DNA of 37,010 bases, taken from NCBI GenBank assembly GCA_945860405.1, contig CAMARC010000007.1, positions 1 through 37,010 of the forward strand. The letters run 5' to 3'. The notes under the pieces are model-generated. The model searched no databases. It saw nothing but the letters and a program-made list of their open reading frames with translations, and was not told where the DNA came from. The DNA is from Candidatus Kuenenia stuttgartensis (lineage in GTDB: Bacteria; Planctomycetota; Planctomycetia; Pirellulales; UBA1268). Positions 1 through 33,595 of the stretch are shown piece by piece (position 1 is the first letter of the stretch; each line of letters opens with the position of its first letter). The position numbers and the translations under genes were made by a program.

Positions 1-46
1 CGTCTTCCGCTCAACCGTGTCTGCCTCCTCTTGTCGGGCCACCCTG

Positions 47-8046: not shown

Positions 8047-11000
8047 ATGTCTGATTCATCGCCGCCATCGGGCGCCGAGCCGGTGACGCGTGAAGCCCTC
8101 GAGGCGATGGTCGCCCGGGCTACCGCCTGTCTGCCGCAGCAGGGGCCGATCGGCGTGTTCGTGGCGCAGAATCCGCTCCAGGCGCTCGAGTCGATTCGAT
8201 TCGACGAAGCGGCGGTGGTCGCCTCGCGGCTCCTCGAGGCCGAGCCTTATCTCTCCGAGGAGCGTTACCGGGCAGAGCTCAGCAACGGCCGGATCACGAC
8301 GGCCGATATCGATGCCGTCCTCGACGACGAGCACTCCGATGTCGCCTCCCACACCCTCTGCCGGGGGCGGCTGACGCTCCGCCAGCTTCACCGGATGCTC
8401 CTCCTCCATTCGATCGTCCGCGAGACCGACGCCGGGGCCCGCTGGGCGCTCACCGAGACCGGGGCGATCGAGACCCTCCGCAGCGATCTCGATCCGCAGG
8501 TGCGCTGGAAGATCCTCACCGAGTCGCTCGGGGAGGAATCGACGCCGGGACGCGAGCCGCGGCTGTTCCTGGCGGCCGACGAACAGGCCCGCGCGGCGGT
8601 GGTCGCGCAGATGGCTCCGCTGGGGCAGCTCGACGACGAGCGCGAAGTGTCGGCCGATCTCTGGCACGCCTGCCTGGAATCGCTGTCGATGACGCGCCCG
8701 GCGATGACGCCCGTCCGCCCGCCGGTGCGCTTCCGCGATCTGATCGTCGCCCTCGATCCGACGCTCGACACCGACGCCCTCGTCGATCCCATCCTCATCC
8801 GCTGGTGCGGCGCCTTCCTCGATCAGGGGGTCGCTGCTTGGCCGATGCCGGGGCGCGAGCGGGGGCTGCTTCAGGCCGTGGTCGGCTTGTCGGGCCCCGG
8901 GGCCTGGGGGGCCGATCCGTGGGGGGTGCCGCTCGGTGCGGCGCTCGTGGCCGCTGGCGGTCGAGACTCTCTCGACGTCATCCGCGCTGAGCTGTGGCGC
9001 CTCGGGATCCCGCCGAATCGCTGGGAAGACTTTCTTACCCGCGCGCTGTTGGCCCTGCGCGGCTGGGCCGGAATGCTGCGGAGCCTCGAGGAGCGGCCCG
9101 ACCGGGCGCCGGTCGTCGAGGTGCCCGCTCGGGTCGTCGACTTCTTGGCGCTGCGGCTGATCTGCGACCGCGTTGCCACGTCGTGGGCCGCCGGGCAGCT
9201 CGGCGTCCCCCTCGCCGCAGATGGGGATCCGAGGCAGGGGTTCGCGGCCTGGTGGGTCGAGCTCCAGGATCGGTATCCGTGGTTGCAGGGCCAGGGGACG
9301 CTTGCCCGCTCGCTCCTCCTCCATCAGGTCGCCCAGCTCCTCGGGATGACGCCCGCCGACATCCGCGAGCTTTCCGAGAACGAGCTTCTCGAGCTCGAGG
9401 GGGAGATTCGCAACTTCGGCCCGCTCACCAGGCGCCGCCTTCTCCATGCCGCCTACGAGCGGCGCTACCGCACCGAGCTGCTCGATGCCCTCGAGCTCCA
9501 TGCGCTCTCGACGGGCTGGCCGCCGCCGGAGCGCCCCTGGCTCCAGGCGGTGTTCTGCATGGACGAGCGTTGCGAGTCGTTCCGCCGTCATCTCGAGGAA
9601 CTCGGGCCCGATGTCGAGACCTTCGGCACAGCGGGGTTCTTCGCGGTGCCGATGTCGTTTCGAGGGATCGACGACTGGCATGCCTCGCCGCTGTGTCCGA
9701 TCGTCGTCCGCCCCGGTCACACCGTCGAGGAGGTGCCCGACGACGGAGCCCGCCGCCTCCATCACCGCCACCGGGAAGTGGCCCGCCGCCTCGGCCAGGT
9801 GAAGGAGGGAATCTCCTCCGGGAGCCGGACGCTCGTCGGCGGGAGTCTCGTGGCGATGGTGGCCGGGGCGCTGGCGGCCGTGCCGCTGGTGGCGCGGGTC
9901 GTGTCGCCGCTGTCCTCCGACCGGATCTGGCGTTGGGCCAAGGGGTTCGCCCGTCCCCCCGTCCCCACCCGTCTTCTTCTCGAGCGGACCGACGACACGC
10001 CGCTCGCCGACGGCACGCTGGCCGGTTTCAACGTCACGGAGATGGCCGGCTGCGTGCGGCGCGTCCTCGAAGACATCGGGCTGCGGAATGGCTTCTCTCG
10101 CCTCGTCGTCATCCTCGGCCACGGCTCCTCGTCGCTCAACAATCCCCACGAGAGCGCCTATCATTGCGGCGCCTGCGGCGGCGGGCCCGGCGGCCCCAAT
10201 GCCCGGGCCTTCGCGTTGATGGCCAACGACCCACGCGTCCGTGCGCTTCTTGCCGACGGCGGGCTGTCGATCCCCGACGATGCGGTGTTTCTCGGCGGCA
10301 TGCTCGACACCTGTGCCAACACCGTCACCTGGTATGACACCGCCCGCGTGCCGGCGAGCCACGCCGACGATCTCGCCCGCCTTCACCGGGCCTGCGAGCA
10401 CGCCTGCGGCGCTGATGCCCAGGAACGCTGCCGGCGCTTCGACTCCGCGCCGACAGGCCCCACGCCCGCTATCGCCCGGGCCCATGTCGAGGGGCGCGCC
10501 GTCGACTTGGCCCAGGTGCGGCCGGAGCTCGGGCATGCCACGAACGCCGTCTGCATCGTCGGCAGGCGAGAGCGCACCCGCGGGCTCTATCTCGACCGCC
10601 GCGCGTTCCTCGTCTCCTACGATCCCGATGCCGATCCCTCGGGCGAGATCCTCACCCGGACGCTCGCCGCTGTCGGCCCGGTCGCCTCTGGCATCAACCT
10701 CGCCTACTACTTCTCCGCCGTCGACCGCCTTCGCTTCGGCTGCAACACGAAGCTCCCCCACAACCTCGTCGGCCTCGTTGGCGTCATGGATGGCCACGCC
10801 AGCGACCTCCGCACCGGTCTCCCCTGGCAGACGGTGGAGATTCACGAGCCGATGCGGCTCCTGCTGGTCATCGATGCCCCGGCCGAGCGGATCCTCGCCG
10901 CCGCCGATCGGCTCCCGGGGGTGAAGCACTTGTTTGTCAACGGCTGGGTGCAACTGGCGGTGTGGAAGGAGGACGGCACGCTCGCTGTCTTCGACGGCAC

Positions 11001-11184
11001 GACCTTCCGCCACCACACAAGGGAGAACTCCCGGCTGCCGATCGTCGATCGCTCGATTACCTGGTTCCGAGGGAAGCACGGTCATCTCCCGCCAGCGCAG
11101 GTGTTGGCGGCCGCAACGCCGGCCCGCCGGCGACAGCCATCGGGCCCCCGTCCGGCCGCGGTCGGCGAAGGCCCGGCGGGGTGA
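8047..11184 (+). CDS. dabA: DabA-type inorganic carbon uptake protein (DUF2309/UPF0753)
   Basis: This is a 1045-residue member of the DUF2309 family. In Halothiobacillus the family member DabA is a carbonic-anhydrase-like subunit that, with the proton-channel subunit DabB, traps CO2 as bicarbonate. The four zinc-site residues are all present: C504 and D506 in CMDER, H692 in ILGHGSSS and C707 in YHCGACGGG. The 15-residue spacing from His to Cys matches the known protein. A further Cys (C710) follows. The start has AAGGA six bases upstream. The neighbours are a peptidase and a propeller protein, and no NuoL-like DabB gene is present. It therefore needs a partner elsewhere or acts differently. 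It could alternatively be annotated only as DUF2309. Confidence 0.88.
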   Translation: MSDSSPPSGAEPVTREALEAMVARATACLPQQGPIGVFVAQNPLQALESIRFDEAAVVASRLLEAEPYLSEERYRAELSNGRITTADIDAVLDDEHSDVASHTLCRGRLTLRQLHRMLLLHSIVRETDAGARWALTETGAIETLRSDLDPQVRWKILTESLGEESTPGREPRLFLAADEQARAAVVAQMAPLGQLDDEREVSADLWHACLESLSMTRPAMTPVRPPVRFRDLIVALDPTLDTDALVDPILIRWCGAFLDQGVAAWPMPGRERGLLQAVVGLSGPGAWGADPWGVPLGAALVAAGGRDSLDVIRAELWRLGIPPNRWEDFLTRALLALRGWAGMLRSLEERPDRAPVVEVPARVVDFLALRLICDRVATSWAAGQLGVPLAADGDPRQGFAAWWVELQDRYPWLQGQGTLARSLLLHQVAQLLGMTPADIRELSENELLELEGEIRNFGPLTRRRLLHAAYERRYRTELLDALELHALSTGWPPPERPWLQAVFCMDERCESFRRHLEELGPDVETFGTAGFFAVPMSFRGIDDWHASPLCPIVVRPGHTVEEVPDDGARRLHHRHREVARRLGQVKEGISSGSRTLVGGSLVAMVAGALAAVPLVARVVSPLSSDRIWRWAKGFARPPVPTRLLLERTDDTPLADGTLAGFNVTEMAGCVRRVLEDIGLRNGFSRLVVILGHGSSSLNNPHESAYHCGACGGGPGGPNARAFALMANDPRVRALLADGGLSIPDDAVFLGGMLDTCANTVTWYDTARVPASHADDLARLHRACEHACGADAQERCRRFDSAPTGPTPAIARAHVEGRAVDLAQVRPELGHATNAVCIVGRRERTRGLYLDRRAFLVSYDPDADPSGEILTRTLAAVGPVASGINLAYYFSAVDRLRFGCNTKLPHNLVGLVGVMDGHASDLRTGLPWQTVEIHEPMRLLLVIDAPAERILAAADRLPGVKHLFVNGWVQLAVWKEDGTLAVFDGTTFRHHTRENSRLPIVDRSITWFRGKHGHLPPAQVLAAATPARRRQPSGPRPAAVGEGPAG

Positions 11185-11280: not shown

Positions 11281-12570
11281 GTGACCATTTCCCGCATCCA
11301 GTCCGGGCGCTTGTCGCTCTCCCGCTGCTTTGGCCCGGCGCTCTGCCTGGTTGCGATCTCGATTCGGGCAGCGGCCCTCGCCGCCGCCCCGCCGACCGCG
11401 GACGATTGGCCCTGCTGGCGCGGGCCGACCCACGACGGCCAGGCAAGTGCCGGGCAGGTCGTTCCACATTCCTGGGGCGACGCCGAGCATGTCCTTTGGA
11501 CGGTCGATGTTCCGGGCCGTGGCAATGGCTCGCCGACGGTCGTGGGGAGCCGGGTGTATCTCGCCACCTGCGACGAGGCGACCGGGAGCCAGTCAGTGCT
11601 CGCCTACGACCGCGTCACCGGCAAGCCGCTCTGGCAGCGGCAGGTTCACGTCGCAGGGGCGATGCGAAAAAATGAGAAATCGACCGGCGCCTCGGCAACC
11701 GTTTCCGCCGACGGTGGCCGGCTCTTCATCACCTTCCCCAACTCCGACGCCGTCTTCTGCACCGCCATCGATCTCGACGGCCAGGTCCTCTGGCAGACGC
11801 GCGTCTGCGATTACGCGATCCACCAGGGCTACGGCGCCTCGCCGCTGGTCCATGACGGCCGCGTGTTCGTGATCGCCGACCACAAAAACCGGGGCCGCGT
11901 CGCGGCCCTCGATCCGGCCACCGGCAAGGTGCTGTGGGAGAAGGAGCGGCCGCCGGCCCCCAACTACTCCTCACCGATCGTCTGGAAGCTCTTCGGCCGC
12001 GATCAGCTCATCCTCACCGGCTGCGACAAGGTGGCAGCGCTCGATCCGGCCACTGGCGAGACGCTCTGGGAGAAGGAGGGGGCGACGACCGAGTGCGTCA
12101 CGACCACCGTCACCGACGGCGAGCGCGTCTATTCCTCCGGGGGCTATCCGCGCAACCACATCGCCGCCTACCGGGCCGATGGCTCCGGAACGATTTCCTG
12201 GGAGAACGGCGAGCGCGTGTATGTTCCCTCGCTCCTCTATGCCCACGGCCACCTCTACGCGATCCTCGATGCCGGGATCGCCGCTTGTTTCGATGCGGCG
12301 ACCGGCGAGGAGAAGTGGAAGCAGCGGCTCGGCGGTAACTTCAGCGCCTCGCCGGTGATGCTTGGCGACACGGTCTTCGCCACGAGCGAGACCGGCCAGA
12401 CGCACGTCTTCCGGGCGACGCCGGAGAAGTTCGAGGAACTGGCCGTCAACCGGCTCGGTGACGAGACGTTTGCATCCCCGGCGATCTGTGGCGGTAGGCT
12501 CTATTTCCGCGTCGCCGTCACCAGCGGCGACAAGCGACAGGAGAAGCTCGTCTGCATCGGCAATCGATGA
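11281..12570 (+). CDS. Secreted PQQ-like beta-propeller repeat protein
   Basis: This is a 429-residue exported protein of the PQQ-binding-like propeller group, common in planctomycetes. It starts with GTG, preceded by GGAG at 11269-11272. The N-terminus has a signal peptide (about residues 1-35). The mature part begins with the typical DWPCWRGPTHDG segment. Repeated blades carry the ALDPATGKVLWEKE / ALDPATGETLWEKE pattern, plus variants at roughly 40-55-residue spacing. Such proteins often act as scaffolds or assembly factors; true PQQ-enzyme catalytic residues are not obvious. Its TGA overlaps an in-frame ATG that could extend hypF upstream, so the two genes may be cotranscribed. No functional link with hydrogenase maturation is shown by the sequence. 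Confidence 0.85.
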   Translation: MTISRIQSGRLSLSRCFGPALCLVAISIRAAALAAAPPTADDWPCWRGPTHDGQASAGQVVPHSWGDAEHVLWTVDVPGRGNGSPTVVGSRVYLATCDEATGSQSVLAYDRVTGKPLWQRQVHVAGAMRKNEKSTGASATVSADGGRLFITFPNSDAVFCTAIDLDGQVLWQTRVCDYAIHQGYGASPLVHDGRVFVIADHKNRGRVAALDPATGKVLWEKERPPAPNYSSPIVWKLFGRDQLILTGCDKVAALDPATGETLWEKEGATTECVTTTVTDGERVYSSGGYPRNHIAAYRADGSGTISWENGERVYVPSLLYAHGHLYAILDAGIAACFDAATGEEKWKQRLGGNFSASPVMLGDTVFATSETGQTHVFRATPEKFEELAVNRLGDETFASPAICGGRLYFRVAVTSGDKRQEKLVCIGNR

Positions 12571-12629
12571 GTGGGCGGGCAGGAGCCCGGCGTGAATCGG
12601 TCACCAAGGAGCCCAGGAGGAGCGGAGCG

Positions 12630-15095
12630 ATGGCAGCCGATGACCATCCGCCGTCCTCCAGCGGGCTTCGCCATTGCCGCCGGATCGTTGTCACGGGGGT
12701 CGTCCAGGGGGTTGGCTTTCGCCCCTGGATCTGGCGGCTGGCCACGGGCCTCGGCCTCGATGGCTGGGTGGAGAACGACTCGTCCGGAGTGACGATTCAA
12801 GTCGAAGGGGACGAGGCCGCCGTCGCCGCCTTCGAGCGGGCCTTGCGTGGCTCTCCCCCACCACGGGCGCGGATCGAGCGGATCGACGTTGTGGCGCTCC
12901 CCCCCCGCGGAGCCTTCACCGCGACCGATGCCGGCCCGAGATCGGCCGCGGGCTTCACGATCCTCGACAGCCACCGGCAGGCCGGGGGGGCGACGTTGCT
13001 CCCAGCCGACATCGCCCCCTGCGCGGCCTGTCTGGCGGAGGTCGGCGATCCCTCGAACCGTCGCCATCGTCATCCGTTTGCCAACTGTACCGACTGCGGC
13101 CCGCGCTTTACCGTGATCCGTGCGCTCCCCTACGACCGGGCGACGACGACGCTCGCCTCCTTTCCCCTCTGCCTTGACTGCGCCCGTGACTATGCCGATC
13201 CGGCCGACCGCCGCTTTCATGCCCAGCCGATCGGCTGCCCGGCCTGCGGGCCGGTGGTCTGGTTTGACGCCGGCCCGGAGGCTGGAGCGGGGAGGCCCGC
13301 GTCGGCTCGTGGCAGCAGCGACGACGCGATCCGCGCCGCCCGTGCCTCCCTCCGCTCTGGCTCGATCCTTGCCGTGAAGGGGGTGGGGGGATTCCATCTC
13401 GTCTGTGATGCCACGAATCCCGCCGCGGTCGCCCGGCTGCGATCTCGGAAACACCGCCCCTCGAAGCCGCTGGCTGTGATCGTTGCCTCAGCCGAAGATT
13501 GCATGGCGTTTGCGATCCTCTCGGCGACCGAGCGCCGGCTCCTCGAGAGCCCCGAGCGGCCGATCGTGCTCCTCGCCAAGCGTGGGGATGGGGCGGCGCT
13601 CGCGGCAGGCGTTCCGCTTGCCGAAGCCGTGGCCCCGGGGATCGGCCATGTCGGCGTCATGCTCCCCGCCTTCCCGCTCCATGCCCTCCTCCTTGATGCC
13701 GCCGACGGCCGGCCGATGCCGGCGCTTGTAATGACCTCCGGCAACGTCGCAGGCGCCCCGATCGAACATGACAATGCCGCCGCCATCGCTCACCTCGGGC
13801 CGATCGTCGACGGCTTTCTCCTTCACGACCGCCCCATTTATGTTCCCTGTGACGACTCCGTCGTCCGCCTCGCTGCCGGCCACCTCCTCCCCCTCCGCCG
13901 CTCGCGCGGCTACGCGCCGCTGCCTGTTCCCCTGGCCGACGATGGTCCCGATCTCCTCGCCATCGGTGGCGAGCTCAAGGCGACGCTCTGTGTCGCCCGC
14001 GGTCGCCACGCCTGGATGAGCCAGCATGTCGGCGACGTCACGAGCCCCGCGGCGCTCTCCACCCTCGAGCGCACCGCCCGCCATCTCCTCGCCCTGTTTG
14101 CCGTCCGCCCCGCGGCGATCGCCGCCGACCTCCATCCCGGCTATCTCTCCACGGCGCTTGCCCGGAAGCTTGCCATCAAGCTCGGCGTTCCCCTCCTTCA
14201 GATCCAACACCACCAGGCCCACGCCGCGGCCCTCCTTGCCGATCGCCACGCCACCCACCGCGAGCCGCTCGCCGGCCCCACGCTCATCGCCGCCTTCGAC
14301 GGCACCGGCTTTTGTGCCGACGGCTCGATCGCCGGCTCGGAGTTTTTTCAGTGGGCCGGCGGCGATGCCGGCGGGGGCGCGGTCTCGGACCTGAGGCCCT
14401 GCGCCCGGCTCGCCCCCTTTCTCCTCCCCGGTGGGGAAGCGTGCATCCGTCATCCGTGGCGGACGGCGCTTGCGCTCCTTCACGAGGCCGGGATCCCCTG
14501 GGATGCGTCGCTTGCGCCCGTGCAGGCCGCCGGCCCGGCCACGCCGATCCTCCGCCGGCAACTCGACCGGCGCATCGCCACGGTGATCACAACGAGCATG
14601 GGCCGGCTCTTCGACGGGGTGGCTGCGCTCCTCGGCCTCAGGCAGTCGATCGATCATGAAGGGGAGGCGGCGATGGCGCTCGAGGGGCTCGGGCTCGATC
14701 CGCTCGCCCAGCCCCGCGTTCATCCGTTCACGATTCAACCGTTGGCGGGGGGCACGTTCCGCATCGGCTGGGATGCGCTCCTTCGCGGGATCGTTGCCGA
14801 CCTGCGTGCCGGCGTCCCGCCGCGCGATCTGGCTGCCGGGTTCCACCGGGCCGTCGCGGAGATGATTGTCGCGGTGGCAGGGGCCGTGGGAGATTCAGCG
14901 GAGGGTGAGCGGCCGCTCGCTGTCGGCCTCACCGGCGGCGTGTTTCAAAACGCGCTCCTTGTCGAGGAGACGTTTGCGTGCCTTACGGCTGCCGGCTACG
15001 AGCCGTTTGGCCACCGGATCGTGCCGCCCAATGACGGCGGGATCGCGCTGGGGCAGACCCTCCTCGGCCGAGCGGCGTTCGCCCGACATCGGTAG
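12630..15095 (+). CDS. hypF: Carbamoyltransferase HypF (hydrogenase cyanide-ligand synthesis)
   Basis: HypF uses carbamoyl phosphate and ATP to carbamoylate the C-terminal Cys of HypE, the first step in making the CN ligands of [NiFe]-hydrogenase. All domains are present in order: an acylphosphatase domain with VQGVGFRPW (R31), two zinc-finger-like Cys clusters (CAAC...CTDC and CLDC...CPAC), a YrdC-like domain ending in the PLRRSRGYAPLP region, and a Kae1-like carbamoyltransferase domain with HHQAHAAAL and AFDGTGFCADG. I chose the ATG at 12630 because AGGAGG (12615-12620) lies nine bases upstream. An ATG at 12567 overlapping the preceding stop would add 21 residues. At 821 residues it is somewhat longer than most family members. 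It is separated from the other hyp genes by about 2 kb. Confidence 0.95.
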   Translation: MAADDHPPSSSGLRHCRRIVVTGVVQGVGFRPWIWRLATGLGLDGWVENDSSGVTIQVEGDEAAVAAFERALRGSPPPRARIERIDVVALPPRGAFTATDAGPRSAAGFTILDSHRQAGGATLLPADIAPCAACLAEVGDPSNRRHRHPFANCTDCGPRFTVIRALPYDRATTTLASFPLCLDCARDYADPADRRFHAQPIGCPACGPVVWFDAGPEAGAGRPASARGSSDDAIRAARASLRSGSILAVKGVGGFHLVCDATNPAAVARLRSRKHRPSKPLAVIVASAEDCMAFAILSATERRLLESPERPIVLLAKRGDGAALAAGVPLAEAVAPGIGHVGVMLPAFPLHALLLDAADGRPMPALVMTSGNVAGAPIEHDNAAAIAHLGPIVDGFLLHDRPIYVPCDDSVVRLAAGHLLPLRRSRGYAPLPVPLADDGPDLLAIGGELKATLCVARGRHAWMSQHVGDVTSPAALSTLERTARHLLALFAVRPAAIAADLHPGYLSTALARKLAIKLGVPLLQIQHHQAHAAALLADRHATHREPLAGPTLIAAFDGTGFCADGSIAGSEFFQWAGGDAGGGAVSDLRPCARLAPFLLPGGEACIRHPWRTALALLHEAGIPWDASLAPVQAAGPATPILRRQLDRRIATVITTSMGRLFDGVAALLGLRQSIDHEGEAAMALEGLGLDPLAQPRVHPFTIQPLAGGTFRIGWDALLRGIVADLRAGVPPRDLAAGFHRAVAEMIVAVAGAVGDSAEGERPLAVGLTGGVFQNALLVEETFACLTAAGYEPFGHRIVPPNDGGIALGQTLLGRAAFARHR

Positions 15096-15108: not shown

Positions 15109-15129
15109 GGCGGTCCGAGCCCGACCGCC
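15109..15129. terminator. Possible bidirectional terminator hairpin
   Basis: GGCGGT (15109-15114) and ACCGCC (15124-15129) form a perfect six-base-pair stem with a nine-base loop. It lies between the convergent ends of hypF and the NHL-type gene and touches the latter's stop codon. There is no U-tract on either side. Confidence 0.35.
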
Positions 15130-16163
15130 TACTCGACACGGACGAGCTTCATGATCCGCCCCGAAACGTTCCAATCCTGGATGTAGAGATTGCCGGCCGC
15201 ATCCCAGGCCGAGCCGTGGGTGCCGTTGAAGATCCCTTCGATCCACTTTTCCTGGGGCACATTGTGATTGGTGCGCGTCTCGCCGTCGGGGTTGTGGCCA
15301 AGAACGGCCATGATCGTGTTGCTCTTGTCGAGGACCACGAGCCGGCCGTTGAGGTCGGGGATGGCGACAAAGTCCCCCTGAACGATCGCCGAGGTGGGCA
15401 TCCCCAAGCCGGTGACGACTTCCTCGAGGAAGTTGCCATCGAAGTCGTAGTGGACAAGCCGCCCCTTCGGCTGGTGGTTGCGGTCGCAGACGAGGAGCCG
15501 CGGGGGATCGTAGCGCGGGTCGAGCGTCATCCCGTGGGCGGTGTTGAACTCCTTCATCCCGTTGCCGGCGACGCCGAAGTGCTTCAGATACTTGCCGGCC
15601 TTATCGAACTTGAAAACGTGGTTGGAGGCGTAGCCGTCGGCGAGGAAGATGTCGCCATTGGGGGCGACGGTGATCGCCGTCGGCGCCCACTTGTCGAGAT
15701 TGAGCCCCGATTCCTTGGGGATGCCGAGCTTGAGAACGACGTCGCCGGAGACGGGGTGAATCTTGATCCCTTCGCCGGCGACATTGCGGGCGCCGTAGAG
15801 GTATTCGCCTTCTCCTTCCGCGTAGATCTTCAGGTCGTGGATGTTGGAGTAGGCGTCGCCGAGAAAGCGGCGGACGACCTTCCCGTCGGGGGAGAAGCCA
15901 AAGATCCCCAGGGAAGAGCTCGTCCAGATCGTGCCATCCTTGCCGACGGCGACGCCGCCGTGGGTCGAGCCGATCTGCGACTTGCCATCCTCGCCGAGGC
16001 CCCAGCCGGGGACGGTGTCGAAGGTCATCTTCCCGCATCCCATCCGCACCGGCTTCTGAGCCGCGGCGGGCTCAGCCGCAACCGCGCCTTGCGGCGCCGC
16101 GACGACGAGGGGGAAGGCCACGAGGGCGACGAGGGTGGCAACGAGGCGGTGGCGGATCGACAT
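15129..16163 (-). CDS. Secreted NHL/six-bladed beta-propeller protein
   Basis: This is a 344-residue exported propeller protein. The second of two nearby ATGs (16163) is preferred because AGGGGA sits six bases upstream of it, whereas the first overlaps that site. Residues 1-30 form a signal peptide ending near AVAAEP. The body has blade-like repeats typical of NHL or peptidylglycine-lyase-like propellers: THGGVAVGKDGTIW, TAITVAPNGDIFLADGY, FNTAHGMTLDPRYDPPRLLV and GSAWDAAGNLYIQDWN. The closest described fold group is the peptidyl-hydroxyglycine alpha-amidating lyase-like/SMP-30 type, but I cannot confirm catalytic residues. It lies convergent to hypF and upstream of nothing co-directional, so its place inside the hydrogenase maturation region may be coincidental. 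Confidence 0.78.
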   Translation of the reverse strand: MSIRHRLVATLVALVAFPLVVAAPQGAVAAEPAAAQKPVRMGCGKMTFDTVPGWGLGEDGKSQIGSTHGGVAVGKDGTIWTSSSLGIFGFSPDGKVVRRFLGDAYSNIHDLKIYAEGEGEYLYGARNVAGEGIKIHPVSGDVVLKLGIPKESGLNLDKWAPTAITVAPNGDIFLADGYASNHVFKFDKAGKYLKHFGVAGNGMKEFNTAHGMTLDPRYDPPRLLVCDRNHQPKGRLVHYDFDGNFLEEVVTGLGMPTSAIVQGDFVAIPDLNGRLVVLDKSNTIMAVLGHNPDGETRTNHNVPQEKWIEGIFNGTHGSAWDAAGNLYIQDWNVSGRIMKLVRVE

Positions 16164-16237
16164 GGACATTCCCCTTTCGTGTGCTGAAGACCGGCGGAAA
16201 GTATCGGTCCTGCCGGGGCCGCTGGCAACCTCTCTCT

Positions 16238-16257
16238 GCCGGCCCTGCCGGGCCGGC
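16238..16257 (-). terminator. Strong GC hairpin between vapC and the NHL gene
   Basis: GCCGGCCC and GGGCCGGC form a perfect eight-base-pair stem with a TGCC loop. It lies about 80 bases beyond the vapC stop and about 75 bases before the next gene on the same strand, so it is placed as a terminator for the toxin-antitoxin operon. No U-tract follows. Confidence 0.4.
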
Positions 16258-16339
16258 GCTTGCTGGCCCTGAGAGAACGTCAGCTACGCGGCCTATGCGG
16301 GGAGGGAAAGCGTCCCCGCGCATGCAGCCGGAGGTTGAC

Positions 16340-16750
16340 TCACGCCCCGAAGGGGTTGAGGACGTTGACCTGAGCCTTGCGGAAATCGGTCACGTTGCGG
16401 GTGACGACTGTCAGGCCGTGAGCGAGTGCGCTTGCGGCGATCAGGCTGTCCTTGATCGGCATGGCCGTTCCGGCAGAACGCATCTCCGCAAGGAGTTTGG
16501 CCCAGCGGAGGCCGGTCTCGGCTGTCCAGTCGAGGCAGGTGATTCGGCCGACACCGCTTTCGAACCAGGCTTCCAGCCGCTTGCGCCGCCCGCTCGACGG
16601 GAGCAGATCGATCCCGAACCTCAACTCACCGAGGATGATCGGATCGATGGCGATCTCGCGTTCATGACGACGGAGCCAGTCGACGACCTTTGCATCAGGC
16701 CGTGGCCGCGTCGGTTCGCTGAGAACATTGGCATCAACGAGGTAGTTCAC
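16340..16750 (-). CDS. vapC: PIN-domain ribonuclease toxin VapC
   Basis: This is a 136-residue PIN-domain protein of the VapC/FitB group, an RNase toxin held inactive by its antitoxin. The four acidic active-site residues expected for the fold are visible: D6 (VDANVLSE), E42 (LGELRFG), D101 (IKDSLIAASA) and D122 (TRNVTDF). Length and order are normal, so the toxin should be intact. Its ATG lies six bases after the antitoxin stop, the usual operon layout. It sits between hypF and hypAB and may be a later insertion into that region. Composition looks like its surroundings. Confidence 0.93.
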   Translation of the reverse strand: MNYLVDANVLSEPTRPRPDAKVVDWLRRHEREIAIDPIILGELRFGIDLLPSSGRRKRLEAWFESGVGRITCLDWTAETGLRWAKLLAEMRSAGTAMPIKDSLIAASALAHGLTVVTRNVTDFRKAQVNVLNPFGA

Positions 16751-16756
16751 GGCGGC

Positions 16757-16987
16757 TCACAAGTCGTCGGTCGACTCTGAATCCACGCCCACGAAGAAGC
16801 CCTTCTCCGGGCAGGAAAGCAGCCAGTCCGCGAGCCCCTCATTCGGCGACGGTTCGCACCGCCGCAGTCGATACTCTCCGCGGTCGATCCGCTCGATCTC
16901 GAACTCCTGGCCAGGCCTGATGTCATCCTGGAGCCGAACGGCCGCCGGAAGAACGATCTGCCCCTTACTCGAAACGCGTGTGTGCAT
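16757..16987 (-). CDS. vapB: AbrB-fold antitoxin VapB
   Basis: This is a 76-residue antitoxin. The N-terminal 45 residues (TRVSSKGQIVLPAAVR...PGQEFEIERI) are a SpoVT/AbrB swapped-hairpin DNA-binding domain. The acidic C-terminal tail (...GVDSESTDDL) would wrap the VapC toxin. It directly precedes vapC. No Shine-Dalgarno sequence precedes the ATG. Instead a perfect inverted repeat starts four bases upstream, so the mRNA may be leaderless or nearly so and repression may block both transcription and translation. Confidence 0.9.
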   Translation of the reverse strand: MHTRVSSKGQIVLPAAVRLQDDIRPGQEFEIERIDRGEYRLRRCEPSPNEGLADWLLSCPEKGFFVGVDSESTDDL

Positions 16988-17115: not shown

Positions 17116-17793
17116 TCAGCGGCTGTTCAAGAGGGCCACGCGGCGGGCGAGGAGGGCTTCGATCCAGGGGTCGATGCCCGTGCCTGTCTTCGTCGCCACT
17201 TCGAGGACCGGCATCCCCGGCCGAACTTGCTCGATGTTCGAAAGGGTCAGCGCCCGATCGAAGCCGACTGCCTCCGCGAGATCGGTCTTCGTGATCACCG
17301 CCAGATCGGACGTGTTGAAGAGCCCCGGATACTTGAGCGGCTTGTCCTCCCCCTCGGTCACCGAGAGGAGCGCCACCCGAACGCTCTCGCCGAGATCCCA
17401 GCTCGTCGGGCAGACGAGATTGCCGACGTTTTCAATGAACAGGATCTCCAGACCAGCCAGATCCCAGCCGGCCAGACGCTCGTCGACCATCGCCGCTTCG
17501 AGATGACACAGCCCGTGCGTCTCGATCTGCCGTACCGGCACGCCACTGCGGGCCAGCCGCTGGGCGTCGTTGTCGGTCTCGAGGTCACCGACGATTGCCG
17601 CCACCGACATCCCCCGGGCCTTGAGCCGGCGGAGCGTCTCCTCGAGGAGCGCTGTCTTGCCACTCCCCGGACTCGAGACGAGATTCACGACGAGCACCCC
17701 GGCTGCTTCGAAACGTCGCCGCATCGCGCGGGCCGTCTCGTCGTTGACTTTGAGGATCTTCGTCCGCACCTCGAGGATCCGGGGCTGGATCAT
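17116..17793 (-). CDS. hypB: Hydrogenase nickel incorporation GTPase HypB
   Basis: HypB is the SIMIBI-class GTPase that, with HypA, inserts nickel into the hydrogenase large subunit. This 225-residue protein has a Walker A motif SSPGSGKT at 40-47, the GDLETDND switch segment and the G4 motif TKTD. The G-domain metal-site residues C96, H97 and C128 are present (GLCHLEA and NLVCP). It lacks the N-terminal CxxCGC nickel site and the His-rich stretch found in some homologues, so it is the minimal form. Its ATG overlaps the hypA stop (ATGA), indicating translational coupling. hypA and hypB are divergent from the protease and hypCDE genes. Confidence 0.95.
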   Translation of the reverse strand: MIQPRILEVRTKILKVNDETARAMRRRFEAAGVLVVNLVSSPGSGKTALLEETLRRLKARGMSVAAIVGDLETDNDAQRLARSGVPVRQIETHGLCHLEAAMVDERLAGWDLAGLEILFIENVGNLVCPTSWDLGESVRVALLSVTEGEDKPLKYPGLFNTSDLAVITKTDLAEAVGFDRALTLSNIEQVRPGMPVLEVATKTGTGIDPWIEALLARRVALLNSR

Positions 17794-18248
17794 GGCTGGT
17801 CTCTTTCTAGGAGGGGCTGCGGGGCGGTTGAATCAGGCTCGGTCGATGTCGATGTGGACGAGGTTAGCTCGGATGCTGTCTGCTCAGTCGATGGCGGGGG
17901 GAGCGGCTCCAATTCAATCGATTCCAAGTCGAGCTCCCGGCCGGCCCGGATGTCGCCACTCAATCGACCACACTCCGGGCAGGCGAGGCTTTGAACCCCC
18001 GGCAGCTCCTGCTCCGCTCCGCAGGCCGGGCACCAGATCCGCACCGGCACGTCGATGATCTCGAGGCGAGCCCCCGAGAGCTTTGTGTCGGCACTGGCGA
18101 GATCGAAGCAAAACCGCAGCGCCCCCTCTTGCACACACGACAACCTCCCGATGCGGAGCGTGATCGCCAGCACTCGGCCCCCCCCGGCCCCGGCGACGTG
18201 CTTCGACACCTCGTCGATGACCGCGGTGGCAATCGAAAGCTCGTGCAT
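17790..18248 (-). CDS. hypA: Nickel metallochaperone HypA with Ser/Thr-rich tail
   Basis: HypA carries nickel to the hydrogenase large subunit together with HypB. The N-terminal MHEL supplies the nickel ligands (H2), and the zinc site is formed by C73, C76, C90 and C93. The conserved protein ends at about residue 115, the usual HypA length. It is followed by about 37 extra residues (PPPSTEQTASELTSSTSTST...) rich in Ser, Thr, Glu and Pro, likely disordered. This tail is real coding sequence in that the frame continues to a stop that overlaps hypB. No strong ribosome binding site precedes the ATG. The region upstream is shared with the divergent protease-Rieske gene. Confidence 0.93.
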   Translation of the reverse strand: MHELSIATAVIDEVSKHVAGAGGGRVLAITLRIGRLSCVQEGALRFCFDLASADTKLSGARLEIIDVPVRIWCPACGAEQELPGVQSLACPECGRLSGDIRAGRELDLESIELEPLPPPSTEQTASELTSSTSTSTEPDSTAPQPLLERDQP

Positions 18249-18425
18249 GGAGGTCTCGAGTGACTGGTCGTGCCAGCGCTGTGGATCGATCGCGGGGTGT
18301 CATCGCCGAAGGAGGCCAGTAAGAGGAGATCGTACCGTCCGGCTCGGTTGGTGGTGGGGAATGACAGGCGTAGACTCGTAGCGGTCGAGTCGAAGCTGCC
18401 TCGTCAGCCAGGGCGTGGCGGCAAC

Positions 18426-18457
18426 GCGAAGGCGCGAAGGCGCGAAGGCGCGAAGGT
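18426..18457 (+). repeat. Four tandem GCGAAGGC octamers
   Basis: Four direct copies of GCGAAGGC (the last ends in T), plus a partial fifth (GCGATGGG), lie in the 261-base gap between divergent hypA and the protease-Rieske gene. This resembles the short slippage-type arrays (CACGAAGG-like units) scattered in many planctomycete genomes. Any regulatory role is speculative. Confidence 0.7.
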
Positions 18458-18509
18458 GCGATGGGGACGGATTCCCCGGTCGGCATGCCGGGGCGGAACG
18501 GGGGAACGC

Positions 18510-19403
18510 GTGCGGGCACTGATCATTGGCTGTGGGAATCTGCTCCGGGGCGACGATGCGGCTGGCCCGGAAGTCGTGCGACGCCTCACGGCCCGCGGGC
18601 TCCCCGACGGCGTCGGCTGCGTGGACGCTGCTACGGCAGGGATCGACGTCGCCCTGTCGATGCGCTCGGTGCCGCATGTGATCGTCGTCGATGCCTGTCG
18701 CTCCGGGAACACCCCAGGGGCGCTCATGGAGCTTTCCGGCGCGGAGGTAGAGCAGTTGCCTCCCCCCTCTGGCATCAGCGTCCATGCCCTCCGGTGGGAT
18801 CATGCGCTCGCCTTCGCTCGCTGGCGTTTGGCTGACGAGTATCCGGCCGAGGTGACCGTGCTGTTGATCGAAGGGGAGCGATTCGAGTACGGCGAGCCAC
18901 TTTCCCCAGCCGTCGAAGAGGGGGTCGAGAGGGTGTGCGAGAGGATCCTCGAGGACCTGTTTGTCGTCGCTGCCGCGGCCACCGCTCACCCGACGACGAC
19001 GCCGCTGTCGGAGGATGGAGAGGCGTGGCCGGCACCGGGGTGGCACGCTGGGCCGCCAGTGGACGCGGTGCCGGATGCACAGCCGATCCCGTTCATGGCC
19101 GGCGACGCGCCGGGAATCATCGTGCGCGGAAAGGGCGGGCTACGGGCCTTCCGCAGCCGTTGCGCGCACGCCGGCTTGTCGCTCGACAACGCCTCGATCG
19201 ATTGTGGGAGCAACGCCCTCGTCTGCCGTTGGCACGCCTACCGCTTCGACGCCGACACGGGGGCAGGCCTGACGGCGCCCCATCGCTGCCTCGAAGGCTG
19301 GCCGCTGCGGGTTGTCGATGGTCTGATCTGGGTCTGTCCGCCGGTGACGGAAGGCTCCGCAGAGGAGGCCGACGTGTCTGAGCGACCGGGCCCTAGGGCA
19401 TGA
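18510..19403 (+). CDS. Hydrogenase maturation endopeptidase fused to a Rieske [2Fe-2S] domain
   Basis: Residues 1-150 are a HyaD/HybD-type protease, which removes the C-terminal peptide of the [NiFe] large subunit after nickel insertion. The opening is ALIIGCGNLLRGDD. The nickel-sensing residues match HybD E16, D62 and H93: here D16 (Asp instead of Glu), D61 (VIVVDACRSG) and H92 (SVHALRWDHA). A Pro/Ala linker (about 155-190) leads to a Rieske domain at about 190-285. Its cluster ligands are C218-x-H220 (CAHAG) and C239-x2-H242 (CRWHAYRFD), the ferredoxin-like Rieske pattern. The GTG at 18510 is preferred (GGGG just upstream); an ATG at 18270 would add an implausible basic leader. hypC follows 55 bases later. 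I know of no standard family with this order, so the Rieske half may be an electron-transfer or redox-sensing partner of the hydrogenase. Confidence 0.85.
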   Translation: MRALIIGCGNLLRGDDAAGPEVVRRLTARGLPDGVGCVDAATAGIDVALSMRSVPHVIVVDACRSGNTPGALMELSGAEVEQLPPPSGISVHALRWDHALAFARWRLADEYPAEVTVLLIEGERFEYGEPLSPAVEEGVERVCERILEDLFVVAAAATAHPTTTPLSEDGEAWPAPGWHAGPPVDAVPDAQPIPFMAGDAPGIIVRGKGGLRAFRSRCAHAGLSLDNASIDCGSNALVCRWHAYRFDADTGAGLTAPHRCLEGWPLRVVDGLIWVCPPVTEGSAEEADVSERPGPRA

Positions 19404-19458: not shown

Positions 19459-19773
19459 ATGTGTCTGGCCGTACCGGGACGGATTGAATCGATCCGTGAA
19501 GACCAGGGAACGCGGATGGGAAAGGTGAACTTCGGCGGCGTCGTCCGCGACGTCTGCCTGGCCTACGTTCCCGAGGCGCTTGTCGGCGATTACACGATCG
19601 TCCATGTCGGCTTCGCCCTTTCGCGGATCGACGAGGCTCTGGCGCTCGAGACGCTGCGGACGTTTGCCGAGATGGGGATCCTTGAAGAGGGGCTCGCGGA
19701 GATCCGCGGCGAGGCGCCCGGCGACGAGCCGGCTGTTTGCCCGCTTCCCCCCGCAGAGGCGCCGCGGCGATGA
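19459..19773 (+). CDS. hypC: Hydrogenase assembly chaperone HypC
   Basis: HypC holds the iron atom with HypD while CN and CO are added, then delivers it to the large subunit. This 104-residue protein starts with the invariant MCLAVPG, where C2 is essential, and has the [12 protein letters not shown] and [10 protein letters not shown] strands of the family. It is somewhat longer than many HypC proteins because of an acidic, Pro-rich C-terminal tail. AAGAAGGG precedes the ATG. Its TGA overlaps the hypD ATG (ATGA). Confidence 0.95.
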
Positions 19774-20879
19774 AGCATCTGGCCGAATACCGCGACGGCG
19801 ACACGGCCCGGCGCCTCGCCGCCGGGATCGCTGCCATCGTGACGCGCCCCTGGGCGATCATGGAGGTGTGTGGCGGCCAGACGCACTCGATCATCCGCAA
19901 CGCCCTCGACCAGCTCCTCCCGCCGGAGGTGGAATTGATCCACGGCCCCGGCTGCCCGGTGTGCGTCACGCCGCTCGAGATGATCGACCGGGCGCTGGCG
20001 ATCGCGGCCCTACCGGGAACGATCTTCTGCTCCTTCGGCGACATGCTCCGAGTTCCCGGGTCGCACGGCGATCTCCTCGGCGTCAAGGCGGCGGGGGGCG
20101 ATGTCCGCGTTGTCTATTCGCCGCTCGATGCCCTCGAGCTGGCCCGCCGCCATCCCGATCACGAGGTGGTGTTTTTCGCGATCGGCTTCGAGACGACCGC
20201 GCCTGCCAACGCCATGGCCGTCCGCCTCGCCGAGCGCGGCGGCGTGAAAAACTTCTCGGTGCTCGTCTCGCACGTCCTCGTGCCGCCGGCGATCGGGGCG
20301 GTGATGGAGTCGCCGGGCAACCGGGTGGAGGCGTTCCTCGCGGCGGGGCACGTTTGCAGCGTGATGGGGACCCTGCAGTATCCGCCGCTGTGCGCCCGCT
20401 ACCGCGTGCCGATTGTCGTGACGGGTTTTGAGCCCCTCGACCTCCTCGAGGGGATCAGGCGGACGGTCATGCAACTCGAGGCAGGGAAGCATGAACTGGA
20501 GAATGCCTACCCGCGCGTCGTCACGGAGGAGGGGAACGCCGCAGCCCAGGCCGTGATCGCCGAGGTGTTCGAGCCCTGTGACCGCACCTGGCGGGGGATC
20601 GGCACGATTCCTTCGAGCGGCTGGAAGCTCGCCGAGCGGTATGCCCCCTTCGACGCCGAGCGCCGGTTTGCGGTCGGGGGGATCGTCACGGCGGAATCAG
20701 CGCTGTGTCGGTCCGGGGACGTGCTCCGGGGCGCGATCAAGCCGAACGAATGCCCCGCCTTCGGCCGGGAGTGCACGCCGCGGACGCCGCTGGGGGCGAC
20801 GATGGTCTCTGGCGAAGGGGCGTGCGCTGCCTATTACCATGCCGGCAGGTTTGCGGCGGTGCAGGGGGAGCGCCCTTGA
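19770..20879 (+). CDS. hypD: Hydrogenase Fe-cofactor assembly protein HypD
   Basis: HypD is the [4Fe-4S] scaffold on which the Fe(CN)2CO unit is built with HypC. The 369-residue chain has the iron/cyanide site C34 (MEVCGGQTH), then C62 and C65 (GPGCPVC), and the C-terminal cluster of cysteines ([10 protein letters not shown] and GEGACAAYY) for the [4Fe-4S] cluster. I chose the ATG at 19770, which overlaps the hypC stop. The alternative at 19737 lies inside hypC. hypE starts at the end of this gene. Confidence 0.95.
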
Positions 20880-21955
20880 GCGACGAGCCCCCCGACATGA
20901 CGCGGATCGCTTGCCCAGCGCCGCTCCCCCATCACGAGCGGATCGTTCTCGGCCATGGCGGCGGAGGAGTGCTGACGCGCGAGCTCATTGAGAAGGTCTT
21001 TCTGCCGGCCTTCGCCAATTCCGTCCTCGCCGGGCTCGGCGACTCAGGCATCCTCCCGGCGGCATGGTTTTCGAGTGGCGGAGGGGAGCGGCTCGCGTTC
21101 TCGACCGACTCGTTCGTCGTTCAGCCGCTCGTCTTCCCGGGCGGCTCGATCGGCTCCTTGGCTGTCAACGGCACGGTCAACGATCTCGCCATGAGTGGGG
21201 CTAGGCCGATGGCCCTCTCGGCCGCGTTCATCCTCGAAGAGGGGCTCGACGTCGGGCTGCTCGTGCGCGTCGTCGCCGACATGGCGAAGGCGGCGCGAAT
21301 GGCGGGCGTGGGGATCGTCACCGGCGACACGAAGGTCGTCGAACGGGGGCGGGGAGATGGCCTCTCGATCACCACGGCCGGGATCGGCCTGGTGCCTGCC
21401 GACTCACGCCTCGGGAGCCGGCCGCCGGAGCCGGGGGATGTGATCCTCGTCAGCGGCACCGTCGGCGATCATGGGATGGCGGTGATGAGCGTCCGCGAGG
21501 GGCTCGGCTTCGAGGCGCCGATTGAGAGCGACTCTGCGGCGCTCCATGGGCTCGTCGCCGATCTCCTCGCCGCCTGTCCCGACGTGGTCCTCCTTCGCGA
21601 CCCGACCCGCGGCGGCCTGGCAATGACGCTCGGCGAGCTCGTGGCGGGGAAGGGGATCGGTATCGAGTTTGACGAGGGGGCGGTGCCGGTCGATCCGGTC
21701 GTCGCTGCGGCCTGTGAGATCCTCGGCCTCGATCCCTTGCAAGTCGCCAATGAGGGAAAGCTCGTGGCTGTGGTGCCTGAGGCGGGGGCGGAGGCGGCGC
21801 TTGCGGCCCTGCGGGCCCATCCGCTCGGGGGCAAGGCAGCGCGGATCGGGCGTATGGTCGCCGACCATCCGGGCCTCGTCGTGGCTCGGACGCCCTATGG
21901 CGGGACACGGATCGTGCCGATGCCGCTTGGCGAGCAGTTGCCGCGGATCTGCTGA
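20876..21955 (+). CDS. hypE: Carbamoyl-phosphate-dependent cyanide synthesis protein HypE
   Basis: HypE dehydrates the thiocarboxamide made on its C-terminal Cys by HypF to thiocyanate and hands cyanide to the HypC-HypD complex. The protein ends in PRIC, the required C-terminal cysteine. It has the AIR-synthase-type ATP-binding fold with [32 protein letters not shown] and [11 protein letters not shown] motifs. The start is assigned to TTG at 20876, which overlaps the hypD TGA and has GGGGGAG five bases upstream, giving 359 residues. An ATG at 20897 would lose seven residues and has no ribosome binding site. This completes the maturation set. Confidence 0.95.
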
Positions 21956-31289: not shown

Positions 31290-33482
31290 TCATGGATCCC
31301 GGGTGAGAAGACCTTCGAGTCGGTTGCCGGCCGCGTGGTGGCGGAGGATCCTTTCGACCTTCTCGACAATCTGGGCGGCGGCCTCGACGGGGGGAAGGCC
31401 AGCGGAGTAGATGTTCGAGATCACCGTCACCTCATGGCGGATGTCGGCGTTGCCGCTGGCCCGCGCCGCATCGCTTTGCTGTTCGGCCGGCACCCAGTAG
31501 ACGAGATACGCCGACAGGCTCCGCGACGCGAGGGCATCACCGCCGGGCCGCTCACCGATCAGATGGATGACGAGATCCGCAGCAAGTTTCTCCCCCACCG
31601 GCTCGGCGAGCTTCACCCGGCCGTGGCGGGCGACCAGCGGCACGCCGACGCCGATTCCCTTGGCGGCCAGGCCGTCGAGGAGGAGCGGAAGGAGATCGGG
31701 GAGGTTGTGGTGGACGGCCGCCGCCGAGAGGCCGTCGGAGATGAGGATCTGCACTGGGAACGGCTCGGCCCCAAGGCTGGCGAGGGCCGCGGCAGTCGGT
31801 CGGGTGCCGAGGGCCGGTGAAGCGAGGTGGGCCTCGTGCGTGGCGGCCTCGGTGGCGATCTCGCGGACGGGGTGAAGAGCCCTGAGGCGATCGACATCGA
31901 GGGGGAGGTGGACGGCTCCGCGGCCGACCGCCTGGTGCCAGCGGACTTGCCGCGTGACGGCATCGGCGGGACGGGGGCCGGCATTCTCGAAGCCGTGGAG
32001 CGCCGGCGTGGCCGCCACGAGCTCCTCAAACTCCTCCACCGAGTCGCAGAACAACTCCGGCCGGCCCCACGCCGGTCCGCGGACGACCGCGTCAGAGCTG
32101 TCGCGGGCGAGGATTCCCCGGCCGAGACACCACTCGAGAAACTCCCCCGCCGGCTCGCGGCCATGGATTTCGCGGAGCGTCTGGTTGTCGTGGGCACTGG
32201 TGTCGAAGTAGGCGAGCATCCGATCGGTGTTGAGAGCGACGTCCATGAAGTAGGTGGCGCCGCCGGCTGCGAGGAGCTCGGTCGTCGCCTGCTGCCCTTC
32301 GAGGCCGCTCCCGGCATGGAGCGTGTAGCAGCTCCCGATCCCCATCGGCAGGCCGAGGAGCTTCGCCAGAAAGAGATCCTGGAGGCTCGCCACGAGGAGT
32401 TCGAAGTTGTCGGCGTGGGTCTCTGGGCCGATGAAGCCGGTGACGTTGTTGATCATGAACGGATCGTAGCGCCGCGCCAGGCCGTAGCAGAGGGCCTCAG
32501 TCGTCGTCATGTCGATCCCGTCGTGGCGGCCGTAGGAGAACTCGCTCCCCTGACCGGTCTCGAAGTACATCGCCTGCGGTGCCCGGCCGTGCAGCGGCCC
32601 GCGGTCGTGCATCGTCCGCCAGCCGCGGTCGAGGAGATCGATCGTCACGTCAAACTCGGCAGTCAGCGTCGCTTCGGTGCCAGCGAGGCTCTGAAAAAGG
32701 ATCTCGACCGGGGCGCCGGCATCGAGGGCGGCAAGCTGCGTCTTGATGTGGGAGAGGACACAGATCTGTGTCGGAGCGCCGGCATGGCGACGGAGGCTGT
32801 CGAGGAGCCGGAGCACCGCCGACACGTTCTCGACGGTGTCGATCGCCGGATTGACGCCGAGGAGCGCATCACCGGCGGCCATCGACAGGCCCCACCAGGT
32901 GAGCAGCGCGATCCCGCGGGGGTCGTCGGTGGGATGGTTCGGCTGGAGACGCGAGGAGAGCGTGCCACGGCGACCGAGGAGCGTGCGGGCCTTCGTTGGA
33001 TTCGCAATCCGCCGGGCGACGAGGATCAGCTCGTGAACATCGCAGAGCTTCGCGACCGCGGCGGCCGTGACGCCGGTGAGCCCGCGGCCGAGGCGCACCG
33101 CCTCGTCTCCGGAGCAGGCCAGAAGACGGTTCTTGAGGTTGCCGACGGTGAGGTGGGCGATTTCGCCAAGGACCGCCCGATCGACGTCGTAGTTGACGCG
33201 CATCACGTCATCGACGCGGCCGTCAGCCGTCAGCAGGGGACGGTCGTGGAGATGGGCGATCTTGAGCCCGGCGAGGATCGAGCGCGCCGCCTCCCGACCG
33301 ATCTCGTTGGCGGCCGAGAGTCCGGCGTGCCGATCCCCTGCCTTGGAGAAGTCGGCAGCGCCGAGGAGCGATTTCAAGCCGACAAACCGGATCGGCCCCT
33401 CGGGGCCCTCAAAGGCATAGGTTTCGTCGGGCCGCGGGAGCGGCACTTCGATTTCGGGGAGTGGGGTGAGACGGGCAAGCAT
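31290..33482 (-). CDS. eutBC: Ethanolamine ammonia-lyase, large and small subunits fused (EutB-EutC)
   Basis: This 730-residue protein joins EutB and EutC, the adenosylcobalamin enzyme that converts ethanolamine to acetaldehyde and ammonia. The first ~460 residues are EutB. RLQPNHPTDDP (R and Q contact substrate), GVNPAIDT, NVTGFIGPE and the SAHD acidic residue are kept. The stretch after CYT, normally NHADADQN, reads LHAGSGLE with no length change, so that part is divergent. From about residue 500 EutC begins: LPLDVDRL, QILISDGLSA, HLIGERPGGDALASRSLSAYL and VISNIYSAGLPPVEA are its cobalamin-contacting motifs. I prefer the ATG at 33482 because it leaves 113 bases for promoters before the divergent gene; a GTG at 33581 would extend it. 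EutA and a permease are encoded on the same strand just upstream. Confidence 0.93.
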   Translation of the reverse strand: MLARLTPLPEIEVPLPRPDETYAFEGPEGPIRFVGLKSLLGAADFSKAGDRHAGLSAANEIGREAARSILAGLKIAHLHDRPLLTADGRVDDVMRVNYDVDRAVLGEIAHLTVGNLKNRLLACSGDEAVRLGRGLTGVTAAAVAKLCDVHELILVARRIANPTKARTLLGRRGTLSSRLQPNHPTDDPRGIALLTWWGLSMAAGDALLGVNPAIDTVENVSAVLRLLDSLRRHAGAPTQICVLSHIKTQLAALDAGAPVEILFQSLAGTEATLTAEFDVTIDLLDRGWRTMHDRGPLHGRAPQAMYFETGQGSEFSYGRHDGIDMTTTEALCYGLARRYDPFMINNVTGFIGPETHADNFELLVASLQDLFLAKLLGLPMGIGSCYTLHAGSGLEGQQATTELLAAGGATYFMDVALNTDRMLAYFDTSAHDNQTLREIHGREPAGEFLEWCLGRGILARDSSDAVVRGPAWGRPELFCDSVEEFEELVAATPALHGFENAGPRPADAVTRQVRWHQAVGRGAVHLPLDVDRLRALHPVREIATEAATHEAHLASPALGTRPTAAALASLGAEPFPVQILISDGLSAAAVHHNLPDLLPLLLDGLAAKGIGVGVPLVARHGRVKLAEPVGEKLAADLVIHLIGERPGGDALASRSLSAYLVYWVPAEQQSDAARASGNADIRHEVTVISNIYSAGLPPVEAAAQIVEKVERILRHHAAGNRLEGLLTRDP

Positions 33483-33595
33483 GCCCTGTACGATACCGTG
33501 CGGCGTCTCCGCCGCCAGCGGGGTGGAGGCAGAGCGGCCCGGCGCGACAAAGCGGCGCGTCGTACCGTGTCCATTCACCACCGAGATTGTTCGCC

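Follow-up and report, generated by a model that had tools for sequence, protein, structure and literature searches.

The open reading frame analysed here lies on contig 7 of a 402-contig metagenome bin (82% complete) of an uncultured planctomycete, within a 37,010-nucleotide stretch of DNA which we call the window. On the plus strand it runs without interruption through 297 codons, starting with a GTG at 18510 and closing with a stop whose last base is 19403, and encodes a hydrogenase maturation protease of the HycI type joined to a Rieske domain. A sequence-only reading of the window had described it as a single-frame fusion of a HyaD/HybD-type protease with a Rieske domain, situated between hypA-hypB and hypCDE. 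Both the architecture and the siting were borne out; ahead of the fusion hypBA occupy the minus strand, and hypCDE follow it on the plus strand:

12567..15095, plus strand: hypF
17116..17793, minus strand: hypB (profile match)
17790..18248, minus strand: hypA (profile match)
18249..18509, no strand: intergenic stretch, where hucS and hucL sit in relatives (comparison with relatives)
18510..19403, plus strand: fusion of HycI-type protease and Rieske domain, 297 aa, GTG start, stop included
18510..18959, plus strand: protease module, aa 1–150, Huc-operon type
18555..18557, plus strand: D16, predicted nickel position 1, equivalent to HybD Glu16 by alignment
18690..18692, plus strand: D61, predicted nickel position 2, equivalent to HybD Asp62 by alignment
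18783..18785, plus strand: H92, predicted nickel position 3, equivalent to HybD His93 by alignment
18960..19037, plus strand: linker, aa 151–176, omega about 1, in-frame length changes
19038..19343, plus strand: Rieske module, aa 177–278, homologous to the C-terminal half of HucE, omega 0.30
19161..19169, plus strand: Rieske ligand motif C218-A-H220 (C-x-H)
19224..19235, plus strand: Rieske ligand motif C239-R-W-H242 (C-x2-H)
19459..19773, plus strand: hypC, 55 bp downstream of the fusion; relatives have an NHL gene between HucE and hypC
19737..20879, plus strand: hypD, called from an upstream TTG; likely start an ATG near 19770
20930..21955, plus strand: hypE

Both halves match their family profiles above the respective cut-offs. 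PF01750 (HycI) covers residues 21–148 (E = 1e-13, 51.7 bits against a curated cut-off of 23) and the NCBIfam profile TIGR00072 is matched with E = 3e-38 and 131 bits against a cut-off of 47.5, the two together spanning residues 4–149, and PF00355 (Rieske) covers residues 182–258 (E = 6.5e-10, 39.2 bits against a curated cut-off of 20.3). A NifU domain was not matched in the fusion by the Pfam profile search. The ORF is a real protease–Rieske fusion. Its D16, D61 and H92 align with E16, D62 and H93 of E. coli HybD (alignment to 2kml/1cfz), which we take to be the metal-binding residues, so that the nickel-site positions named before could be retained, as could the Rieske ligands C218, H220, C239 and H242; all seven residues are invariant across the four genomes now known to carry the fusion. 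The second ligand loop reads C-R-W-H-A, and the compared HucE proteins mostly show C-P-W-H-G at this point. An AlphaFold model from the four-row alignment was poor (pLDDT 43.5) and no claim on the fold is drawn from it.

The whole fusion is present without a stop in three congeneric bins (G152 and G129 with 84% identity each, G204 with 80%) among 297 sampled genomes of the order. Searches of the genus (12 genomes) and the family (72 genomes) yielded no further fusion, and neither did a non-exhaustive sampling of the phylum (392 genomes); none of 72,556 plasmid records holds a full-length one. A literature search found no published account of a protease–Rieske fusion, though one may exist. A long match in G282 proved not to be a fusion: a stop interrupts it, and the protease there stands alone ahead of hypC. 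The three named fusion records are two Planctomycetaceae bins and one labelled Candidatus Kuenenia, each with its own isolate name and accession; this label is probably wrong, because the bin falls in the same genus as the other fusion bins. As all four fusion genomes are metagenome bins, an assembly or binning artefact has to be considered, but the identical junction recurs in four bins, of which the three named ones differ in isolate name and accession, at 80–84% identity, and coding constraint is seen on both sides of the linker. Such an artefact can be dismissed with near certainty, and because three other bins of the genus hold the same open frame the fusion is no product of chance or of an assembly error. 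The sequence-only reading had also named what would speak against it, a stop or frameshift splitting the two genes or a loss of the ligands in relatives; within the genus the frame is open and the ligands are kept in all four genomes.

In other genera of the family protease and Rieske domain are encoded by separate genes. Relatives such as G042 and G231 show the order hucS-hucL-protease-TPR protein-short unknown protein (DUF)-HucE-type protein (NifU-Rieske)-NHL-hypC-hypD-hypE with hypA-hypB on the far side of hucSL, and the landmark genes follow each other in the same order in G027, G116 and G177. A distance of about 2–3 kb divides the unfused protease gene from HucE across several more genera and families of this order; hucL immediately precedes the protease, and NHL-hypCDE come after HucE. 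The large subunit adjoining the protease in one relative was identified as Huc by its best hits among solved structures (PDB 7uus and 7utd, E about 5e-263). The same Huc gene order is found on a Mycobacterium intracellulare plasmid and on a Sulfobacillus plasmid, and NifU and Rieske domains are both present in the HucE of G042, Mycobacterium and Sulfobacillus. Parageobacillus operons 2–4 have this order as well (PMC12976888). The Huc-locus protease of the M. intracellulare plasmid (L169, 9007–9780) is itself 257 aa long, with about 110 residues beyond the HycI domain that have no Pfam match.

Both halves of the fusion point to such an operon. The protease is 51% identical over 142 aa to the Mycobacterium Huc-locus protease, and the tree places the four fusions together with the protease of the congener G240, which lacks a Rieske domain, next to a clade of Huc-locus proteases. 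The Rieske domain is 45–49% identical to that of planctomycete HucE-type proteins of the same family and 37% to that of mycobacterial HucE, compared with about 37% or less to the other Rieske proteins of the order, and its alignment with HucE begins at GWHxGP, the start of the HucE Rieske half. Fusion and HucE also occupy the same place ahead of hypCDE; in contrast to HucE, the fusion lacks NifU, is joined to a protease and stands in a genome in which no Huc hydrogenase was found. The link to HucE suggested earlier thus holds for the homology to the C-terminal half of that protein but not for the assignment to group 1h, as HucE (MSMEG_2268) belongs to group 2a, and HucE is not a small Rieske-like protein, as had been stated, but a NifU-Rieske protein (PMC6883350). 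The group 1h counterpart HhyE has rubredoxin-like CxxC pairs and no Rieske motif (PMC6883350).

With the Huc operons of Mycobacterium, Sulfobacillus and Parageobacillus the fusion locus shares divergent hypBA, protease, Rieske domain and the hypCDE side, but hucS, hucL and the TPR, DUF, NifU and NHL parts are missing. A Rieske gene directly after a HyaD/HybD protease and before hypA is also known from the group 1d operon of Parageobacillus thermoglucosidasius, a likeness in gene position; there the two are separate genes and the enzyme belongs to group 1d (PMC12976888). From the gene order of the relatives, the ancestor would have had hypB-hypA on the minus strand facing hucS-hucL-protease-TPR/DUF-HucE(NifU-Rieske)-NHL-hypC-hypD-hypE. 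The simplest history would then combine the loss of hucS and hucL, a deletion that began where the protease ends and reached into mid-HucE, taking TPR, DUF and the NifU part with it and leaving the protease reading in frame into the Rieske half, and the loss of NHL. We consider it probable that the fusion is a genuine two-domain protein which originated in this way from the stepwise collapse of the operon for Huc, a group 2a enzyme acting on atmospheric hydrogen, and the locus would then be an example of a respiratory operon decaying into a new protein.

Decay of hucL can be followed in the relatives, three of which hold clear remnants beside the protease: just ahead of that gene, G184 and G176 are left with nothing but pieces of hucL, and the hucL of G249 is internally deleted. 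In the window, a possible trace of the hucL 3'-end within 18249..18509 upstream of the fusion is weak (P about 0.01–0.03) and suggestive of a remnant, not decisive. G176, which has no Huc large subunit, also encodes a 115-aa Rieske-only HucE remnant without NifU (L046, 6758–7105, minus strand) at a distance of 7 kb from its protease gene. An NHL-like gene in the window (15129–16169, minus strand) was rejected as the displaced Huc NHL protein, its similarity being marginal and repeat-like (E = 0.03, single comparison). In the region 15216–16780 a comparison with G204 gives two plus-strand ORFs a dN/dS close to 1, which marks them as probable shadows; the genes that appear real there lie on the minus strand and encode this NHL-like propeller protein and a PIN-domain protein (16340–16750).

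The window holds no match to a hydrogenase large subunit (PF00374). Elsewhere in the genome a single large subunit was found; it belongs to group 3b, is closest to sulfhydrogenase 1 (9nez, E = 9e-68) and is encoded on contig 31 together with the 3b small, flavin and FeS subunits. Its C-terminus reads DPCISCATH-FLRLSIERAERGVIRL, and the 16 residues following DPCISCATH look like a normal cleavable tail. The fusion is the only HycI found in this genome, and in G129 and G152, each 91% complete, a 3b enzyme is likewise the only large subunit found. Exactly one HycI match occurs in 27 of 33 related genomes and two in none of them, and the single-HycI genomes include some with a 2a and a second, 3b-like large subunit, some with 2a alone and some with 3b alone, the BLAST typing of second large subunits covering part of these subunits. 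As there is at most one HycI per genome whether 2a, 3b or both are present, the Huc-type protease probably matures the group 3b enzyme here, and judged from gene content one protease lineage most likely serves both 2a and 3b enzymes. Since the window's bin is 82% complete, an unassembled Huc or second protease is possible.

Compared with the HycI/HyaD/HybD endopeptidases (PF01750, TIGR00072; HybD 1cfz), the fusion is alike in its protease domain, metal positions and siting in a hyp cluster, and it too is accompanied in the genome by a substrate-like large subunit with a C-terminal tail (none found in G204), but it has 147 extra residues with a Rieske domain, and its protease of Huc lineage occurs with a 3b hydrogenase. 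According to the gene content the protease part would still be a HycI-type, nickel-sensing endopeptidase, and it would clip the 3b tail after DPCISCATH because it is the sole HycI found in the genome. The usual view of maturation proteases is that each serves a single hydrogenase and contains no redox cofactor. For some Nitrospirales that possess both enzymes a single protease has been reported and left unexplained (PMC12342949), and a single HycI serving 2a and 3b throughout the family would fit this observation.

For the Rieske half, a codon model of the four fusion sequences gave an omega of 0.30, compared with 0.19 for the protease and 0.98 for the linker, whose length varies by whole codons only. 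The value for the Rieske part differs from 1 with P = 6e-7, and this half is under purifying selection. In HucE-type Rieske pairs of the closest relatives pairwise omega is mostly about 0.07–0.2, so that the constraint may be somewhat relaxed yet is real. Because the ligands are invariant and purifying selection acts, the Rieske part would on balance still fold and probably bind a [2Fe-2S] cluster. It would most likely be a redox or maturation accessory held beside the precursor large subunit and carried over from the role of HucE. In M. smegmatis HucE is required for Huc activity, for which its authors favour electron transfer but allow a role in maturation, citing a factor related to rubredoxin on which aerobic maturation depends in Ralstonia (PMC6883350). 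The union with a maturation enzyme is a mild argument for the latter, and the fusion, which places the HucE Rieske next to a protease, offers a natural clue, though no proof, that this half of HucE works at maturation.

We thus regard the Rieske half as probably a retained redox or maturation module and possibly a tolerated passenger. According to the passenger reading the protease is the sole working part, and the Rieske domain, a deletion accident, persists solely because the protease would suffer if this domain misfolded or were lost. A protease without a Rieske partner is indeed found in the congener G240 (locus L052) and in further 3b-only genomes of the family, and an omega of 0.30 means weaker constraint than in most close HucE-type pairs. 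This omega is nevertheless well under 1, all four ligands are invariant and the neutral linker changes its length in frame only; moreover, a stop in the linker would have removed a useless domain, because short proteases are the rule in the family. A mere passenger is therefore conceivable, but on the unlikely side. The sequence-only reading had instead proposed a gate, with the Rieske cluster sensing redox or oxygen state and switching the processing of the large subunit on and off. The physical link of the domains agrees with this, as do the need of Huc for HucE, the maturation role allowed for it and the Ralstonia factor (PMC6883350), but a variable and neutral linker argues against tight coupling and relatives in which the genes are separate manage the processing of this enzyme type with no such fusion, which leaves such a switch quite unlikely.

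An exchange of electrons between the Rieske half and the 3b hydrogenase, with the fusion as a convenience of delivery, could be derived from the proposal of HucE as electron carrier of Huc (PMC6883350). Group 3b enzymes have FeS and flavin subunits of their own, however, and these were found in this genome, making a Rieske carrier needless, and most 3b-only relatives lack a Rieske partner; we give this idea little credence. The retained module could, in its most specific form, make the fusion a maturation endopeptidase with its own Rieske cluster used in maturation, for example to sense the precursor's redox state, or to set it, ahead of the irreversible cleavage; in this lineage a group 3b hydrogenase would have taken over a Huc-type protease. 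In this full form it appears unlikely.

A role now unrelated to hydrogenase has to be discussed because of G204, which keeps the fusion intact and in whose genome neither a hydrogenase large subunit nor hypD was found, a state consistent with either a very recent loss or a function of the fusion beyond hydrogenase. The G204 branch has an omega of 0.30 (P = 8e-6 against 1). That branch also covers the time before the loss, however, the bin is 91% complete, and in the window's genome and two of the other three the fusion lies directly before hypCDE with 3b in the genome, so that an unrelated role seems very unlikely. At the G204 locus (L042, 7800–11300) pieces of hypF, hypB and hypE are all that is left of the hyp cluster around the intact fusion; hypA and hypC are gone.

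Three further loci of the window were recorded. On the plus strand, 8047–11184 encodes a DabA-type inorganic carbon transporter subunit of 1045 aa, with no DabB-like neighbour among the ORFs scanned. EutB and EutC, the large and small subunits of ethanolamine ammonia-lyase, lie in one 763-aa frame at 31290–33581 on the minus strand, an apparent fusion, with EutA and an amino-acid permease just beyond it. At 17–2050 (plus strand) the alpha and beta parts of a dehydrogenase E1 share a single 677-aa frame, which is followed by an E2 gene.
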